Shown: piece by piece, positions 1,779 to 35,188 of the stretch | Layout of the letters: each line of letters opens with the position of its first letter | Numbering within the stretch: the stretch's first letter is position 1 | Origin: an uncultured bacterium | GTDB taxonomy: Bacteria; Patescibacteriota; Gracilibacteria; Absconditabacterales; Absconditicoccaceae | Length of the DNA: 35,340 bases | Assembly (NCBI GenBank): GCA_947170225.1 | Contig: CAMVSQ010000010.1 | Span: 1-35,340, forward strand | Direction of reading: 5' to 3' | Made by a program: the position numbers and the translations under genes | Notes under the pieces: generated by a model | What the model saw: the letters and a program-made list of their open reading frames with translations, nothing else | Databases searched by the model: none | Told to the model about the DNA's origin: nothing

Positions 1779-1805
1779 CTAATACCCCCCCCCCCATTCT
1801 GTCAA
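1779..1805 (-). promoter_or_regulatory. Promoter with poly-G tract between -35 and -10 (candidate phase-variable)
   Basis: On the minus strand a perfect -35 TTGACA (1805-1800) is followed by GAAT, eleven consecutive G (1795-1785) and TATTAG (1784-1779, 4 of 6 matches to the -10 consensus). The spacer is therefore 15 nt, of which 11 are one base. Gain or loss of G would move it toward or away from the 17-nt optimum. The start codon of the surface protein is about 115 nt downstream. A weaker alternative promoter (TTGAAA ... TATAAA) lies nearer the gene. Confidence 0.55.
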
Positions 1806-1847
1806 ATTTGTGATATAATATGGGTAAAATGTTTTTTTAATATAAAG

Positions 1848-1873
1848 AAAAATAACTGTTTCCAGTTATTTTT
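1848..1873. terminator. Intrinsic terminator hairpin
   Basis: AAAAATAACTG and CAGTTATTTTT form an 11-bp stem around a 4-base loop, with A and T flanks that allow termination in both directions. No gene lies immediately on the plus-strand side, so the relevant direction is probably minus, where it ends the two-hairpin RNA element upstream of the surface-protein promoter. Confidence 0.7.
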
Positions 1874-1923
1874 CACCCTACGATTTGTTAGTTCGTTTGA
1901 TTGTGGTATTTAAACTTACTAAC
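1848..1923 (-). ncRNA. Two-hairpin RNA element with intrinsic terminator, copy 1
   Basis: On the minus strand GTTAGT (1923-1918) pairs with ACTAAC (1892-1887), with a further 4-bp GTTT/AAAC helix inside. The loop contains ACCACAATC. The linker carries TCGTAGG (1883-1877), followed by an 11-bp terminator hairpin (1873-1863 with 1858-1848) capped by a GAAA tetraloop. Copy 2 at 15873-15951 shares loop, linker and terminator stem but has a different first stem that still pairs. A possible promoter (TTGAAA, 16 nt, TATACT at 1961-1956) precedes it, so it may be an independent RNA of about 100 nt. Function unknown. Confidence 0.5.
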
Positions 1924-2158
1924 TTATGCAAAGACTCATCATCTTTACAACATACAGTATACTATTTACTGTATCAATTTCAAGTGGTTTTTCATATTTT
2001 TTATCATAGTTTAAATAGCAGGTAAACACTACTATTGTGCAAATTCCTATATTTTTTGATTTGACATTTTTTCAAAAAAATAGCTTATTGTTCATACAAA
2101 TTCACAGCAAATAGATTTCTCCATTTCACTTCTTCTCTCTCAAAATAACCCAATTCTC

Positions 2159-2255: not shown

Positions 2256-4865
2256 CTACAGCACTATATTACAAATCTTTCATGGAATATATATCACTTT
2301 CTTTATTTCAGATGTCAGATTTCTACTAATTTTCTCATCATTTTTCACTATTTCCATCACTTCTTCTTGTGTAGCTGTTTTAGAAATTTCGATAGTTCAT
2401 CTTACCTTTCCATTTACTTGTACAGCCATAGTGATAGTATCTTGTACCAAGTACTTTTCATCCACTTCTGGCCAATGTTTTTCATCAAATATACTAAATT
2501 GATTTCCCAATTTTTCTCGGAATTCTTCAGCCAAATGAGGAGCAAACGGAGCTATCAAAATTATCAAAGTTTCAAAGGTCTTTTTTGATATTTTTTCCTG
2601 TCAAGTTAATTCATTTACTAGTATCATCATTTGTGCAATCGCTGTATTAAACCCAAATCTATCACTAATATCTTCATCTACTTTTTTGATTGTCTGATGT
2701 AATGTCATCAATATTTTTTTATCATCTTCATAATTTTCATGTATCTTTGGATACAAATTGCATACCCTATCCAAAAACTTTTTTACTCATTTTACTCCGT
2801 TTGTATTCCAGCTCACTGCTTGATCAAAAGGTCACATAAACATCTCATAAACCCTCAATGTATCAGCTCCATATTCATTCACGATATCATCTGGATTTAC
2901 CACATTTCACCATCTCTTGGACATCTTACGACCATCCTCTGCCATGATAAGTCACACAGACTGATATGCTTTAAATGGCTCTTGGACACTAGTAATCCCC
3001 ATATCATACAAAAACATATTCCAAAATCTTGCATAAATTAGATGTCTATTGATATGTTCAGCTCATCATACATACATATCTACTGGATGCCAAAACTTTT
3101 CTTTTTCTGGAGAGACAAGCTGTTTGTCATTGTGTGGATCCATATATCTGATCCAATACCAGCTTGATCCAGCCCATCCGGGCATAGTATTTGATTCTCT
3201 CTTTGCATCAGCTCCACAGTGTGGACATTTTACATTCATCCAGTCATGGATATTTGCCAGCGGTCATTCTTCTGTACCTGTTGGTTCATAATTTTCCACA
3301 TCAGGCAAAGTCAAAGGCAAATCATCTTCAGTCAACGGTACAATTCCACAATTTGGACAGTGAATCATTGGAATTGGCTCTCACCAATATCTTTGACGTG
3401 AAAATACTCGGTCTTGGAGTCTATAATTTACTTTCTTTCATCAAATTCATCTCTCAGTCAACCATTCTTGCATCTTTGCAATAGCTTGATCTGAAGTTAA
3501 TCCACTAAATTCTCATGAATTGTTTACTATTCACTTATCAGGATAACAAACTTCACAATTTAATATTCTATCATAATTTTCGTGATTTTTATCTTCTGGT
3601 AAAATACTATTTATGATTTCTATATCGTATTTTCTCGCAAAATCAAAATCCCTTTCATCATGTGCAGGCACAGCCATTACGACTCATGTACCATATCATG
3701 CAAGTACATAATCTCAAATATAAATTGGGATTTTCTTTCCATTAAATGGATTTATTGCATATGATCATGTAAATTGTCATGTCTTTTCTTTTTGAAGTCA
3801 TGTCCTTTCAAGCTGAGTTTTGTGTTTTGCTTGATCTACATAAGCATCTACAGCTGCTCTGTACTCAGCAGTCGTAATCCTATCTACTAATTCATGCTCT
3901 GGTGCCATCACGACAAAAGACATTCCAAACACCGTATCCACTCTAGTAGTATAAACACTGATAGATAGTTGTGTGTCATTCTGAGGCGTAGCCGAAGAAT
4001 CTAAATTATATCCTTCGCTTTCAGCTCAGGATGACATATTATCAAATATCTTCATATCGAACTCAGTACCTTCAGACCTTCAAATTCGATTCCTTTGTTG
4101 ATCTTTTACACTATCTGCTCGTCATGGCAAACTATCCAATCATTTCAAAAGTCTGTCTGCATATTTTGTGATTCTGATTACTCGCTGTTTCATAGGTTTT
4201 TGCTCTACCATACTTCCACATCTTTCACAAGTTCCATCAGCCTCCAAATCCTCATTTGAAAGTCCAGTTTTGCAATGCGGACATCGATTGATCGGCTTGT
4301 AGTCCATATAACAAAGCCTCTGACTATTTATAAATTCCTCCTTTGTCATTGTATCTGGGACTTTGATTTCTCCAGCGTGAATTTTCTCCTCCAAAACCAA
4401 AATATCATAAGCTTTTTGGTCTTTTTCATCAAAATAACTATTGTACATTTTCAAAAATGTTGCTTGAGTCCATTTAAAATAGTCTGGATCAGCAGTATTT
4501 ACTTGTCTATCTCGATCATAAGTACACCCAAACATTGCTAACTGCCTTTTGTATGTAGCAATATTGTCTGCAGCTGCTCTTTGGGGTTTTACTTTATGTG
4601 CTATAGCATACTGCTCCGTCCCAAGCCCAAAAGTATCAAATCCCATTGGATGCAAAACTTTTTCTCCCAAAAGCATATGTTTACGAGCCATCACATCTGT
4701 AGCTATATATCATTTTGGATGTCAGACATGCAACCCAGCACCACTAGGATATGGAAACATATCCAAAATATAAAAACTCTGTTTTTCTGGATCTTCCACG
4801 ACTTTATAAGTCCCAGCTTCTTCTCGCCTTTTTTGCCATTTTTTTCCAATTTCTACAAAATCCAT
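2256..4865 (-). CDS. leuS: Leucyl-tRNA synthetase
   Basis: Class Ia aminoacyl-tRNA synthetase that charges tRNA-Leu; 869 residues, in the usual bacterial range. The HIGH signature is HVGH (residues 46-49) within GLHVGHPKGY, and the second signature is KMSKR (647-651). A zinc-type pair of CxxC motifs (CPHC, CERC) lies near residues 190-210. The CP1 editing domain follows, with IGRSEG and TTRVDTVFG, and the C-terminus has the family ending KVIYIPGK. In-frame TGA codons fall at family glycines. Residues 277-297, between IGRSEG and [10 protein letters not shown], are encoded by a dispersed palindromic repeat (3975-4035) and have no counterpart in LeuRS sequences I know. The ATG at 4865 gives the normal N-terminus; no Shine-Dalgarno is visible. 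Confidence 0.96.
3975..4035 (-). repeat. Palindromic repeat, family A, embedded in frame in leuS
   Basis: Read on the minus strand it starts GTCATCCTGAGC and ends CTCAGAATGAC, matching the intergenic copies at 9617-9687 and 26942-27002. Here it is translated as about 21 residues from M277 to D297 of LeuRS. Its TCC-TGA-GCT start is read Ser-Gly-Ala; under the standard code it would stop translation. Confidence 0.85.
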
Positions 4866-10828: not shown

Positions 10829-10882
10829 GAAATGACAAGAACTGTGGTCATTTCGACTCTGAACAAAGCGAATGGTGAGATC
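10829..10882. repeat. Palindromic repeat, family B, partial copy
   Basis: GAAATGAC (10829-10836) and GTCATTTC (10847-10854) face each other. The second arm continues into CTGAACAAAGCGAATGGTGA, homologous to the family B copies at 2159-2237 and 35096-35188. It lies just after the tsaD stop. Confidence 0.65.
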
Positions 10883-14513: not shown

Positions 14514-15836
14514 ATGAAATTAAAAGATTATTTCCAAGATAAAAAAGAATTTACAATGAGCGAAAGCCAAAAGCTAGCTCTTTACGAAAAAATCCTTTCC
14601 AAAAACAAAAAAAGGTCATTTTTTCATGTATTCAAAATCAAATCTCTAGCATACAGCTTTATTATTATGATATTGTTTGTATGAATATATTGAGTATACT
14701 TTTTCAATTGAGATTACGACTGACTAATTACAAAAAATCCTGTAAATCAAGTAAATGCAGACTTTATCGCCAAAGTTGTTGATTTCAACTGAAATTTTTA
14801 TATACAGCGTGACTGAAAAATATTTAAATCCAGCAATATCTCAAACTGAGACAATATCATCCTAAAAAAATGATCAGATATAGTTTTTGATATCAACTCT
14901 GGTACAAAAGCAAAAATTACCTGACCAGCCAGATTTTCTTTATACCAAAATGACAGTGAATACCAAATACTCATAGCAGAATGAGATTTTATCCAAATGG
15001 AATCTTCCCAGCCTGATCAAGCACCTATGGAAGTAATAATAAATGACTTCACAGTATCTAGTCAAAACAATATCAATTTGCTGATCACAAAAAAAGACAA
15101 TGAATACAAAATCGACAACCAATGAGACAACATAAAAGTAATCAGAAACAACGATACTACAGAAGTAAAAACCAAAGAATTGCTTGCGATAAACGAACAC
15201 GACATCACACTCATCCAAAATGTAGAAGAATTTCAAACAGCATTTGTAGAAAATAAAATCAACCAAACATTTGAAATACAAGAAGAACAAGATACTCAAA
15301 AAATTACAGAAAATCTAATAAAAGAGATTTCTACATGAACTGTCCAAATCCAAAATACTTGACTTGCACAAGATTTGTGAATCATTGATTCAAAACAAAT
15401 CCCTACAGAAGAACAATCAAAAGTTTTGTACAGTGCTTTGGACAAAACTGCTCTTATGCGAAATTTAGAAAATATGCGAGAATACCGAAACATCTGAAAC
15501 CAACCAGATTACTATTTTAGCAAATCTCAAATAGACACCAAAATCCAAAAATTATACAGTGCATTTGGTATCCCATACCAAAAATTGGGTACAAAAGCCG
15601 ACATACAAGACCTGATACAAAATTTACAAGATTCATACCATATACCAAATACACAAATATCAAATCTAAAAACACTGATAAATTGGATAGACTACATTGA
15701 AAATTTACCAGTTCCTCATACACAAACAAACGAAAACAGTGAAGATAACGAAAATAAAGAGATGCTAAAAAATGAAATCGAAGCAAAACGAACAGAATTT
15801 GAAAACAATCTTCCAAGCAACTTGATACTATATTAA
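14514..15836 (+). CDS. FecR-like single-pass membrane protein
   Basis: 440 residues. The N-terminus is short, cytoplasmic and basic (KNKKRSFFHVFKIKS), then one transmembrane helix spans residues 44-64. A FecR-type beta domain follows, with an NGDNIILKKGSDIVFD-like core and INSGTKAKITGPARFSLY, about residues 95-160. The C-terminal half is Gln/Asn/Lys/Glu-rich and probably helical. FecR domains occur in anti-sigma regulators and in surface or sensor proteins of many phyla. No sigma-factor gene is adjacent, so a structural or sensing role at the envelope is equally possible. The gene is followed by the two-hairpin RNA/terminator element. Confidence 0.65.
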
Positions 15837-15872: not shown

Positions 15873-15951
15873 TTTAGTTAAAAAAACCACAATCTATTTT
15901 AACTAAACTCGTAGGTAAAAAATAACTGGCCACAATCGACCAGTTATTTTT
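15873..15951 (+). ncRNA. Two-hairpin RNA element with intrinsic terminator, copy 2
   Basis: TTTAGTTAAAA (15873-15883) pairs perfectly with TTTTAACTAAA (15897-15907), leaving a loop with ACCACAATC. The linker carries TCGTAGG (15909-15915), then a 12-bp terminator hairpin follows (15918-15929 with 15940-15951). Its loop again contains CCACAATC. The loop, linker and terminator arms match copy 1 on the minus strand at 1923-1848, while the first stem differs in sequence yet still pairs. A perfect TATAAT lies at 15859-15864, so an independent start is possible; otherwise it is the 3' end of the FecR-like transcript. Confidence 0.5.
15918..15951. terminator. Bidirectional intrinsic terminator
   Basis: A 12-bp stem (AAAAATAACTGG / CCAGTTATTTTT) lies between the converging FecR-like gene and FKBP lipoprotein gene. 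A on one flank and T on the other can serve both strands. Confidence 0.85.
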
Positions 15952-26941: not shown

Positions 26942-27002
26942 GTCATTCTGAACGAAGTTAAGAATCTTATTTTTAGATTCTTCGGCAAAGCCTCAGAATG
27001 AC
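26942..27002. repeat. Palindromic repeat, family A, inside the ribosomal operon
   Basis: GTCATTCTGA and TCAGAATGAC bound a 61-bp palindrome with inner arms AAGAATC / GATTCTT. It separates rpsK from rpsD, which elsewhere in this operon are at most about 40 nt from their neighbours. Confidence 0.85.
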
Positions 27003-27012
27003 ACAAATACTA

Positions 27013-30894: not shown

Positions 30895-30968
30895 AGCGGG
30901 TAACGGGACTCGAACCCGTACGAGCAGAGCTGAAGTCTGCTATGCTACACCAACTACATCATACCCGC
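30895..30968 (-). tRNA. tRNA-Gly (UCA), decoder of UGA as glycine
   Basis: 74-nt standard cloverleaf. Acceptor GCGGGTA pairs perfectly with TACCCGC, and the discriminator is T, as in bacterial tRNA-Gly. Anticodon stem GCAGA/TCTGC encloses CTTCAGC, so the anticodon is TCA, complementary to UGA. T-arm ACGGG/CCCGT with TTCGAGT. It lacks the long variable arm and extended acceptor of tRNA-Sec. The same type of tRNA is described for SR1 bacteria. It is the first gene of the minus-strand block and has its own probable promoter. Confidence 0.95.
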
Positions 30969-35026: not shown

Positions 35027-35095
35027 GATTTAAAACCAAATTATTTCAAAACTTGGTTATAAGACAACAAAACTGAAATTCACTTTTCGCTGAAT

Positions 35096-35188
35096 GGATT
35101 TCTCACCATTCGATTTGCTCAGGTTCGAAATGACGGGAGTTTAGTCATTTCGAGTTTATGCAGCTATGCTGTATGCAACGAGAAATCC
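35096..35188. repeat. Palindromic repeat, family B
   Basis: GGATTTCTC (35096-35104) and GAGAAATCC (35180-35188) are the outer arms. Inside are TTGCTCAGG and opposing TCGAAATGAC / GTCATTTCGA segments, as in the copies at 2159-2237 and 10829-10882. Confidence 0.8.

Follow-up and report, generated by a model that had tools for sequence, protein, structure and literature searches.

What is a short element that lies twice on one bacterial contig, on opposite strands, with a hairpin that changes its letters from copy to copy and two motifs that do not? The window analyzed here is the whole of that contig (35,340 nt), taken from a genome of 952,577 bases in 24 contigs. Long open reading frames emerged from the ORF scan when UGA was read as glycine and were absent without that reading, and a tRNA with the anticodon UCA was found in the genome; both observations fit the code-25 lineage Gracilibacteria/Absconditabacteria, to which the genome would belong. 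ARAGORN calls a tRNA-SeC (anticodon TCA) at 30895-30968 (-), but if the genome uses code 25, a tRNA-Gly(UCA) that decodes UGA is the likelier identity. Our comparison sets comprised 49 genomes of the order (the source genome included), 288 genomes drawn from the class, a collection of 84,980 species, and viral contigs. UR.bin133, a Patescibacteria group bacterium isolate, is the only congener of the source genome among them.

Two other features of the window were recorded in passing. A run of 11 G at 1785-1795 (-) (GC content of the window: 31%) lies about 120 nt upstream of a surface-protein gene (Pfam Flg_new/Fib_succ_major) that reaches the contig edge, and it is possibly a phase-variation tract. 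Dispersed inverted repeats of 34-80 nt (78-94%) pair 3972-4005 with 26972-27005, 2139-2218 with 35075-35154, and 10840-10880 with 35101-35141; among them are TCATTCTGAG...GAAGAATCT-type units with the look of small mobile repeats.

Structure and distribution of the elements

The first-pass annotation had placed the two copies at 15873-15951 (+) and 1923-1848 (-), and both were found there, folding as described and with terminators at their ends (Table 1). Both copies fold better than all 200 dinucleotide shuffles of their own sequence (z = -4.4 for the plus copy and -3.5 for the minus copy), and folding bore out the claim that the first stem is built from different bases in the two copies and is nevertheless paired in each. 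The annotation also listed a loop, a linker, and terminator arms as shared parts. The loop CCACAATC and the linker TCGTAGG are indeed the same in four of four copies, counting two in UR.bin133, but the shared arms did not hold, because the UR.bin133 plus copy has quite different ones. The loop motif does return in the terminator loop of the plus copy, as had been noticed; among the four copies compared, this second CCACAATC belongs to that copy only. Within the window, CCACAATC occurs 4 times against 1.0 expected, with 3 of the occurrences inside the two elements, and TCGTAGG 4 times against 0.5 expected, with 2 inside them; over the whole source genome, the motif pair at the spacing of the elements occurs exactly twice.

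Table 1. Positions of the elements, their parts, and the associated genes in the window
Feature	Position	Strand	Basis and remarks
Putative stand-alone sRNA gene, ~115 nt	1841..1955	-	Predicted transcript; start placed just past the -10, end past the terminator
Promoter-like TTGAAA-N16-TATACT	1956..1983	-	Promoter scan; equivalent-position pair in UR.bin133
5' hairpin	1927..1949	-	Folds: 9 bp in the source genome, 10 bp in UR.bin133; pairing kept, sequence not kept
Motif hairpin, minus copy, 6+4 bp	1887-1923	-	Fold; loop motif CCACAATC at 1899-1906
Linker TCGTAGG, unpaired, minus copy	1877-1883	-	Same in all four copies
Intrinsic terminator, minus copy, 12 bp, 4-nt loop	1847-1874	-	Terminator scan
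440-aa membrane protein, host mRNA of the plus copy	14514..15836	+	ORF; FecR/anti-sigma-like by eye; no Pfam match
Motif hairpin, plus copy, 11 bp	15873-15883/15897-15907	+	Fold; loop motif CCACAATC at 15887-15894
Linker TCGTAGG, unpaired, plus copy	15909-15915	+	Motif search
Terminator hairpin, plus copy, 12 bp	15918-15951	+	Fold; second CCACAATC in the loop, 15930-15937

Selection at the level of RNA structure, which the annotation had proposed, is what the comparison suggests: pairing of the stem is kept where its bases changed, both between the two copies and across the two genomes, and the possibility of recent duplicates without covariation did not hold, since the copies differ in sequence with pairing retained. 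In an alignment of four rows, 3 of the 9 pairs of the first stem are altered on both sides, and 88% of cells are paired, compared with 26-44% in slid controls. The covariation score is 0.259 versus 0.124 in shuffles (23 of 500 shuffles reach 0.259), as read from rows that were trimmed so that the stems align, on a preset structure, two of these four rows being almost the same. Between the plus copies of the two genomes, the stem has taken up a compensated T-A pair insertion, and the terminator has been wholly replaced yet is still paired. With four sequences the statistical power is low, and a terminator has to be paired in any case; we take covariation as support, not proof, of a selected RNA structure.

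The search of relatives with a covariance model, which the annotation had proposed, returned two more copies, both in UR.bin133. The model spans the motif hairpin together with the linker. Under it the four elements score 64-77 bits among the 49 genomes of the order, while the next best match there reaches 24.5 bits (E = 0.13) and is unconvincing once aligned; 15 weak loci were inspected, and the top five were aligned and discarded as elements. In the class, 2 of the 288 genomes have a match at E <= 0.05, namely the source genome and UR.bin133. The DNA pattern CCACAATCN{6,30}CGTAGG falls at seven places in 5 of the 49 genomes of the order: two in the source genome and two in UR.bin133, all of them elements, and three isolated matches elsewhere that have no terminator after them in the flanks inspected by eye. 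Its occurrences in the elements are not chance. The same DNA pattern search found 22 stretches in the 84,980-species collection, two of them in UR.bin133; the other 20 were folded and rejected, as none combined the loop hairpin with a terminator by eye. Among viral contigs it found five stretches, none convincing. Full blastn matches to the 80 nt over the 49 genomes were confined to the source genome and UR.bin133, and eight weaker loci that we inspected held no element. The annotation had recognized no known RNA family, and no Rfam family matches the elements at gathering score; tRNAs are the sole Rfam matches of the whole window, and the best score in relaxed scans is 26.7 bits, where the threshold is 54. 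Within the reach of these tools, the family is restricted to the genus.

Genomic setting of the minus and plus copies

By its layout the minus copy appears to be an sRNA gene standing alone, which would be transcribed from its own promoter. The predicted RNA folds into an architecture of three hairpins plus terminator, and UR.bin133 has a TTGAAA/TATAT(A/T) pair at the equivalent place, upstream of its minus-type RNA. Matches of this kind are equally frequent in shuffled sequence, and the support for the promoter comes from its equivalent position in two genomes, not from the scan score. The minus RNAs of both genomes have a GTATG start in common, and their 3' 80 nt are 99% identical, while five protein pairs from the same two genomes are 30-65% identical. 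The minus-type RNA of UR.bin133 has different neighboring genes, and the letters upstream differ too. Purifying selection on an RNA gene would be the simpler reading of the 99% identity, because a recently transferred 80-nt block would need to have arrived next to a promoter and hairpin of this kind in both genomes. At 1953-1973 (-) in the source genome, the -10 of the minus RNA is overlapped by an inverted repeat, TACAGTA-N7-TACTGTA, which was not seen at the minus-type locus of UR.bin133 and is possibly an operator of the sRNA gene.

The plus copy is, judging from its position, a 3'-UTR module of the membrane-protein gene. The order of membrane-protein gene, element, and convergent FKBP gene is the same in the source genome and UR.bin133, and CCACAATC and TCGTAGG are the sole parts of the UR.bin133 plus copy left unchanged, against an altered stem and terminator. 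On the strand of the plus copy, the promoter scan found no promoter. Relatives of the membrane protein occur in 43 of the 49 genomes of the order. The 170 nt past the stop codon were read at the 30 loci returned, two of which are the elements; the CCACAATC hairpin is present at none of the 28 homologues read in other genera, and many of these end in a plain terminator. Two other roles were rejected. For the plus copy, control of a downstream gene as a riboswitch or attenuator is ruled out, the gene that it faces being convergent. Flanking 14 kb and directed outward, the two copies were also considered as terminal repeats of a mobile element, but what lies between them looks like housekeeping genes (leuS-, tsaD-, thyA-, frr-, and yidC-like by eye), and the location of the two UR.bin133 copies on separate contigs also counts against such termini.

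We conclude that the two elements are real and that, on the sequence comparisons available, they are best described as a new sRNA family, a genus-specific pair of structured RNAs made up of a probable sRNA gene and its 3'-UTR sibling.

Possible modes of action and candidate partners

How such RNAs might act depends on how translation starts in these bacteria. Our search pattern for the 16S rRNA tail matched 36 of the 49 genomes of the order; 30 tails were read, and the CCTCC core is kept in one of them. The source genome and UR.bin133 have the tail GACCACCATC, with GACCACCATCCTAAAC as the tail of the source genome. No Shine-Dalgarno (SD) sequence was found upstream of 190 ORF starts in these two genomes; the starts look short-leadered, and TANNNT is the most frequent motif near -20. 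Loss of the anti-Shine-Dalgarno sequence in Absconditabacteria has already been reported. Since the lineage has no anti-Shine-Dalgarno core and its genes have no SD, regulation by SD occlusion is unavailable.

The reading we favor, and to which we would give about an even chance, is that the elements are sibling regulatory RNAs acting on other RNAs through base-pairing seeds. The stems would serve as scaffolds, free to change as long as they are paired, and the two invariant unpaired motifs, CCACAAUC and UCGUAGG, would be the working parts. In the plus copy the 3' module is fused to the membrane-protein mRNA and could be released from the 3' UTR or act within it. With CCACAAUC and UCGUAGG as seeds, both transcripts would reach the same partners, tying the expression of envelope genes together. 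Pairing would hit leaders, early coding regions, or mRNA stability, because the SD-covering mode cannot apply. This reading draws on four sequences from one genus, in all of which the motifs are identical at the same structural places while the stems differ, and on the reuse of CCACAATC by the plus copy in its terminator loop, a feature it has in common with multi-seed sRNAs.

The invariance of the motifs in a fixed structural context, together with the repeated loop motif of the plus copy, would also suit a protein that recognizes CCACAAUC and UCGUAGG, for which the minus copy might act as scaffold or decoy and the plus copy as a tag on the membrane-protein mRNA. Such a protein-binding pair would account for the conservation of the whole minus copy, which extends beyond the need of two seeds. 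We nevertheless hold it to be doubtful, though a possibility to be reckoned with: two RNAs per genome with the motif pair are few for a global protein, and among the folded CCACAATC sites none besides the elements is intergenic, in a loop, and accompanied by a terminator. It is improbable that the copies are ordinary terminators with an extra hairpin, modules that end transcription or protect 3' ends and have no function in trans. A good terminator hairpin does end both copies, and the plus copy stands directly 3' of a coding gene; what stays unexplained is why 8-nt and 7-nt unpaired motifs should be invariant across differing stems, why a promoter-led copy has no gene inside, and why the homologues of other genera have no such module at their ends. 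An element acting as DNA (an operator, attachment site, or small mobile repeat) is very improbable. Near-identity of the minus copy in two genomes with different neighbors would agree with it, but each genome has one minus-type copy, the promoter and 5' hairpin upstream of it are made of different letters in the two genomes, and paired stems with changed sequence suit RNA. Least probable of all is a mimic of the 16S rRNA 3' tail, in which the loop ACCACAAUC, resembling the source genome's own tail ACCACCAUC and having 8 of 9 letters in common with the tails of both genomes, could titrate a tail binder, as this is one short likeness among many noticeable ones, leaves TCGTAGG unexplained, and meets T, not A, directly 5' of CCACAATC in the UR.bin133 plus copy. 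Pairing of UCGUAGG with 16S rRNA was also rejected (tail CCCTACGA in the source genome, CCCTACCGG in UR.bin133), the complement not being conserved.

If the elements do act by base pairing, complements of the two motifs should mark candidate partners. The complement of the loop motif, GATTGTGG, has 63 sites in the two genomes, 58 of them placed relative to genes (the others are four in the window and the UR.bin133 element itself). They include one orthologous upstream pair, at distances of 39 and 36 nt from the start of a gene for an SLH-domain protein (PF00395), where the site sits within a conserved AAAGATTGTGGTAC. The linker complement CCTACGA has 53 sites, 47 of them placed (outside these are four in the window, one in the UR.bin133 element, and one seen when the SLH region was inspected), again with one orthologous pair, which precedes a PF10107 gene divergent from a serS-like gene; a naming of the gene behind this pair as RNase Y was discarded, as Pfam gives PF10107. 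The PF10107 site is upstream of a conserved TTGAAA-N16-(C/T)ATAAT promoter-like pair, and the SLH site would occupy the -35 position with TATAAT/TTTAAT near the ATG taken as the -10. Because they lie upstream of likely -10 boxes, both lead sites are perhaps untranscribed. Duplex energies of the element RNAs with these upstream regions were no better than with shuffled targets (fraction at least as good, 0.05-0.88 in eight comparisons). Seven orthologous upstream pairs, including both lead genes, share a mean of 11 8-mers, compared with 2.6 for non-orthologous pairs. Chance would give about 0.1 conserved upstream matches per motif, assuming 900 genes, so each target lead is only suggestive.

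The best of these leads, the conserved GATTGTGGTAC upstream of the SLH-protein gene, may itself belong to a promoter. Ten contiguous pairs are possible between GAUUGUGGUAC and the loop of each of the four copies. One could picture a two-seed system in which the loop CCACAAUC pairs with the GAUUGUGGUAC leader of the SLH gene while UCGUAGG acts on the PF10107 nuclease-like gene, joining an envelope protein and a DNA-handling gene in one regulon without a ribosome binding site, but we think this unlikely. The SLH-protein and PF10107 genes are also the exactly two places per genome with TAATGTAYACATGA and its inverted repeat ATGT-N2-ACAT, which looks like a candidate shared operator just past the -10.

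Comparison with known RNA systems

Both copies resemble intrinsic terminators in ending with one, and differ from them by the extra conserved hairpin and the unpaired motifs. The 3'-UTR-derived sRNAs are a class of bacterial sRNAs; the plus copy is like them in lying between the stop codon and the terminator of a coding gene, with putative release by processing, and unlike them in having a stand-alone sibling. In a title-level survey that took in the candidate phyla radiation and Saccharibacteria, we found no paper on sRNAs of the recoded Gracilibacteria/Absconditabacteria lineage. The presence of an sRNA family here would suggest that dedicated RNA regulators are retained even in very reduced bacteria, and in a lineage without SD pairing the question arises directly of how translation is controlled by an sRNA that has no SD to block.

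Sibling sRNAs with motifs in a hairpin loop, a single-stranded stretch, and a terminator loop are described for LhrC of Listeria monocytogenes, which acts by SD occlusion and has lapB as a target, according to a published account (PMC5880928). The present elements are likewise small sibling RNAs, and the three-place layout of motifs described there recurs in the plus copy of the source genome. The product of lapB is a surface adhesin. The differences from LhrC as there described lie in the number of members (two versus seven), in the unrelated sequence, and in the terminator-loop motif, which one of our four copies has. Unlike the CU-rich, SD-covering motifs of LhrC in that text, CCACAAUC and UCGUAGG are not complementary to an SD, and they occur in a genus without SDs; relaxed Rfam scans gave no LhrC match. 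By analogy, it seems that the two elements may work as a multi-motif family of sibling sRNAs, one that stands outside LhrC and any Rfam family.
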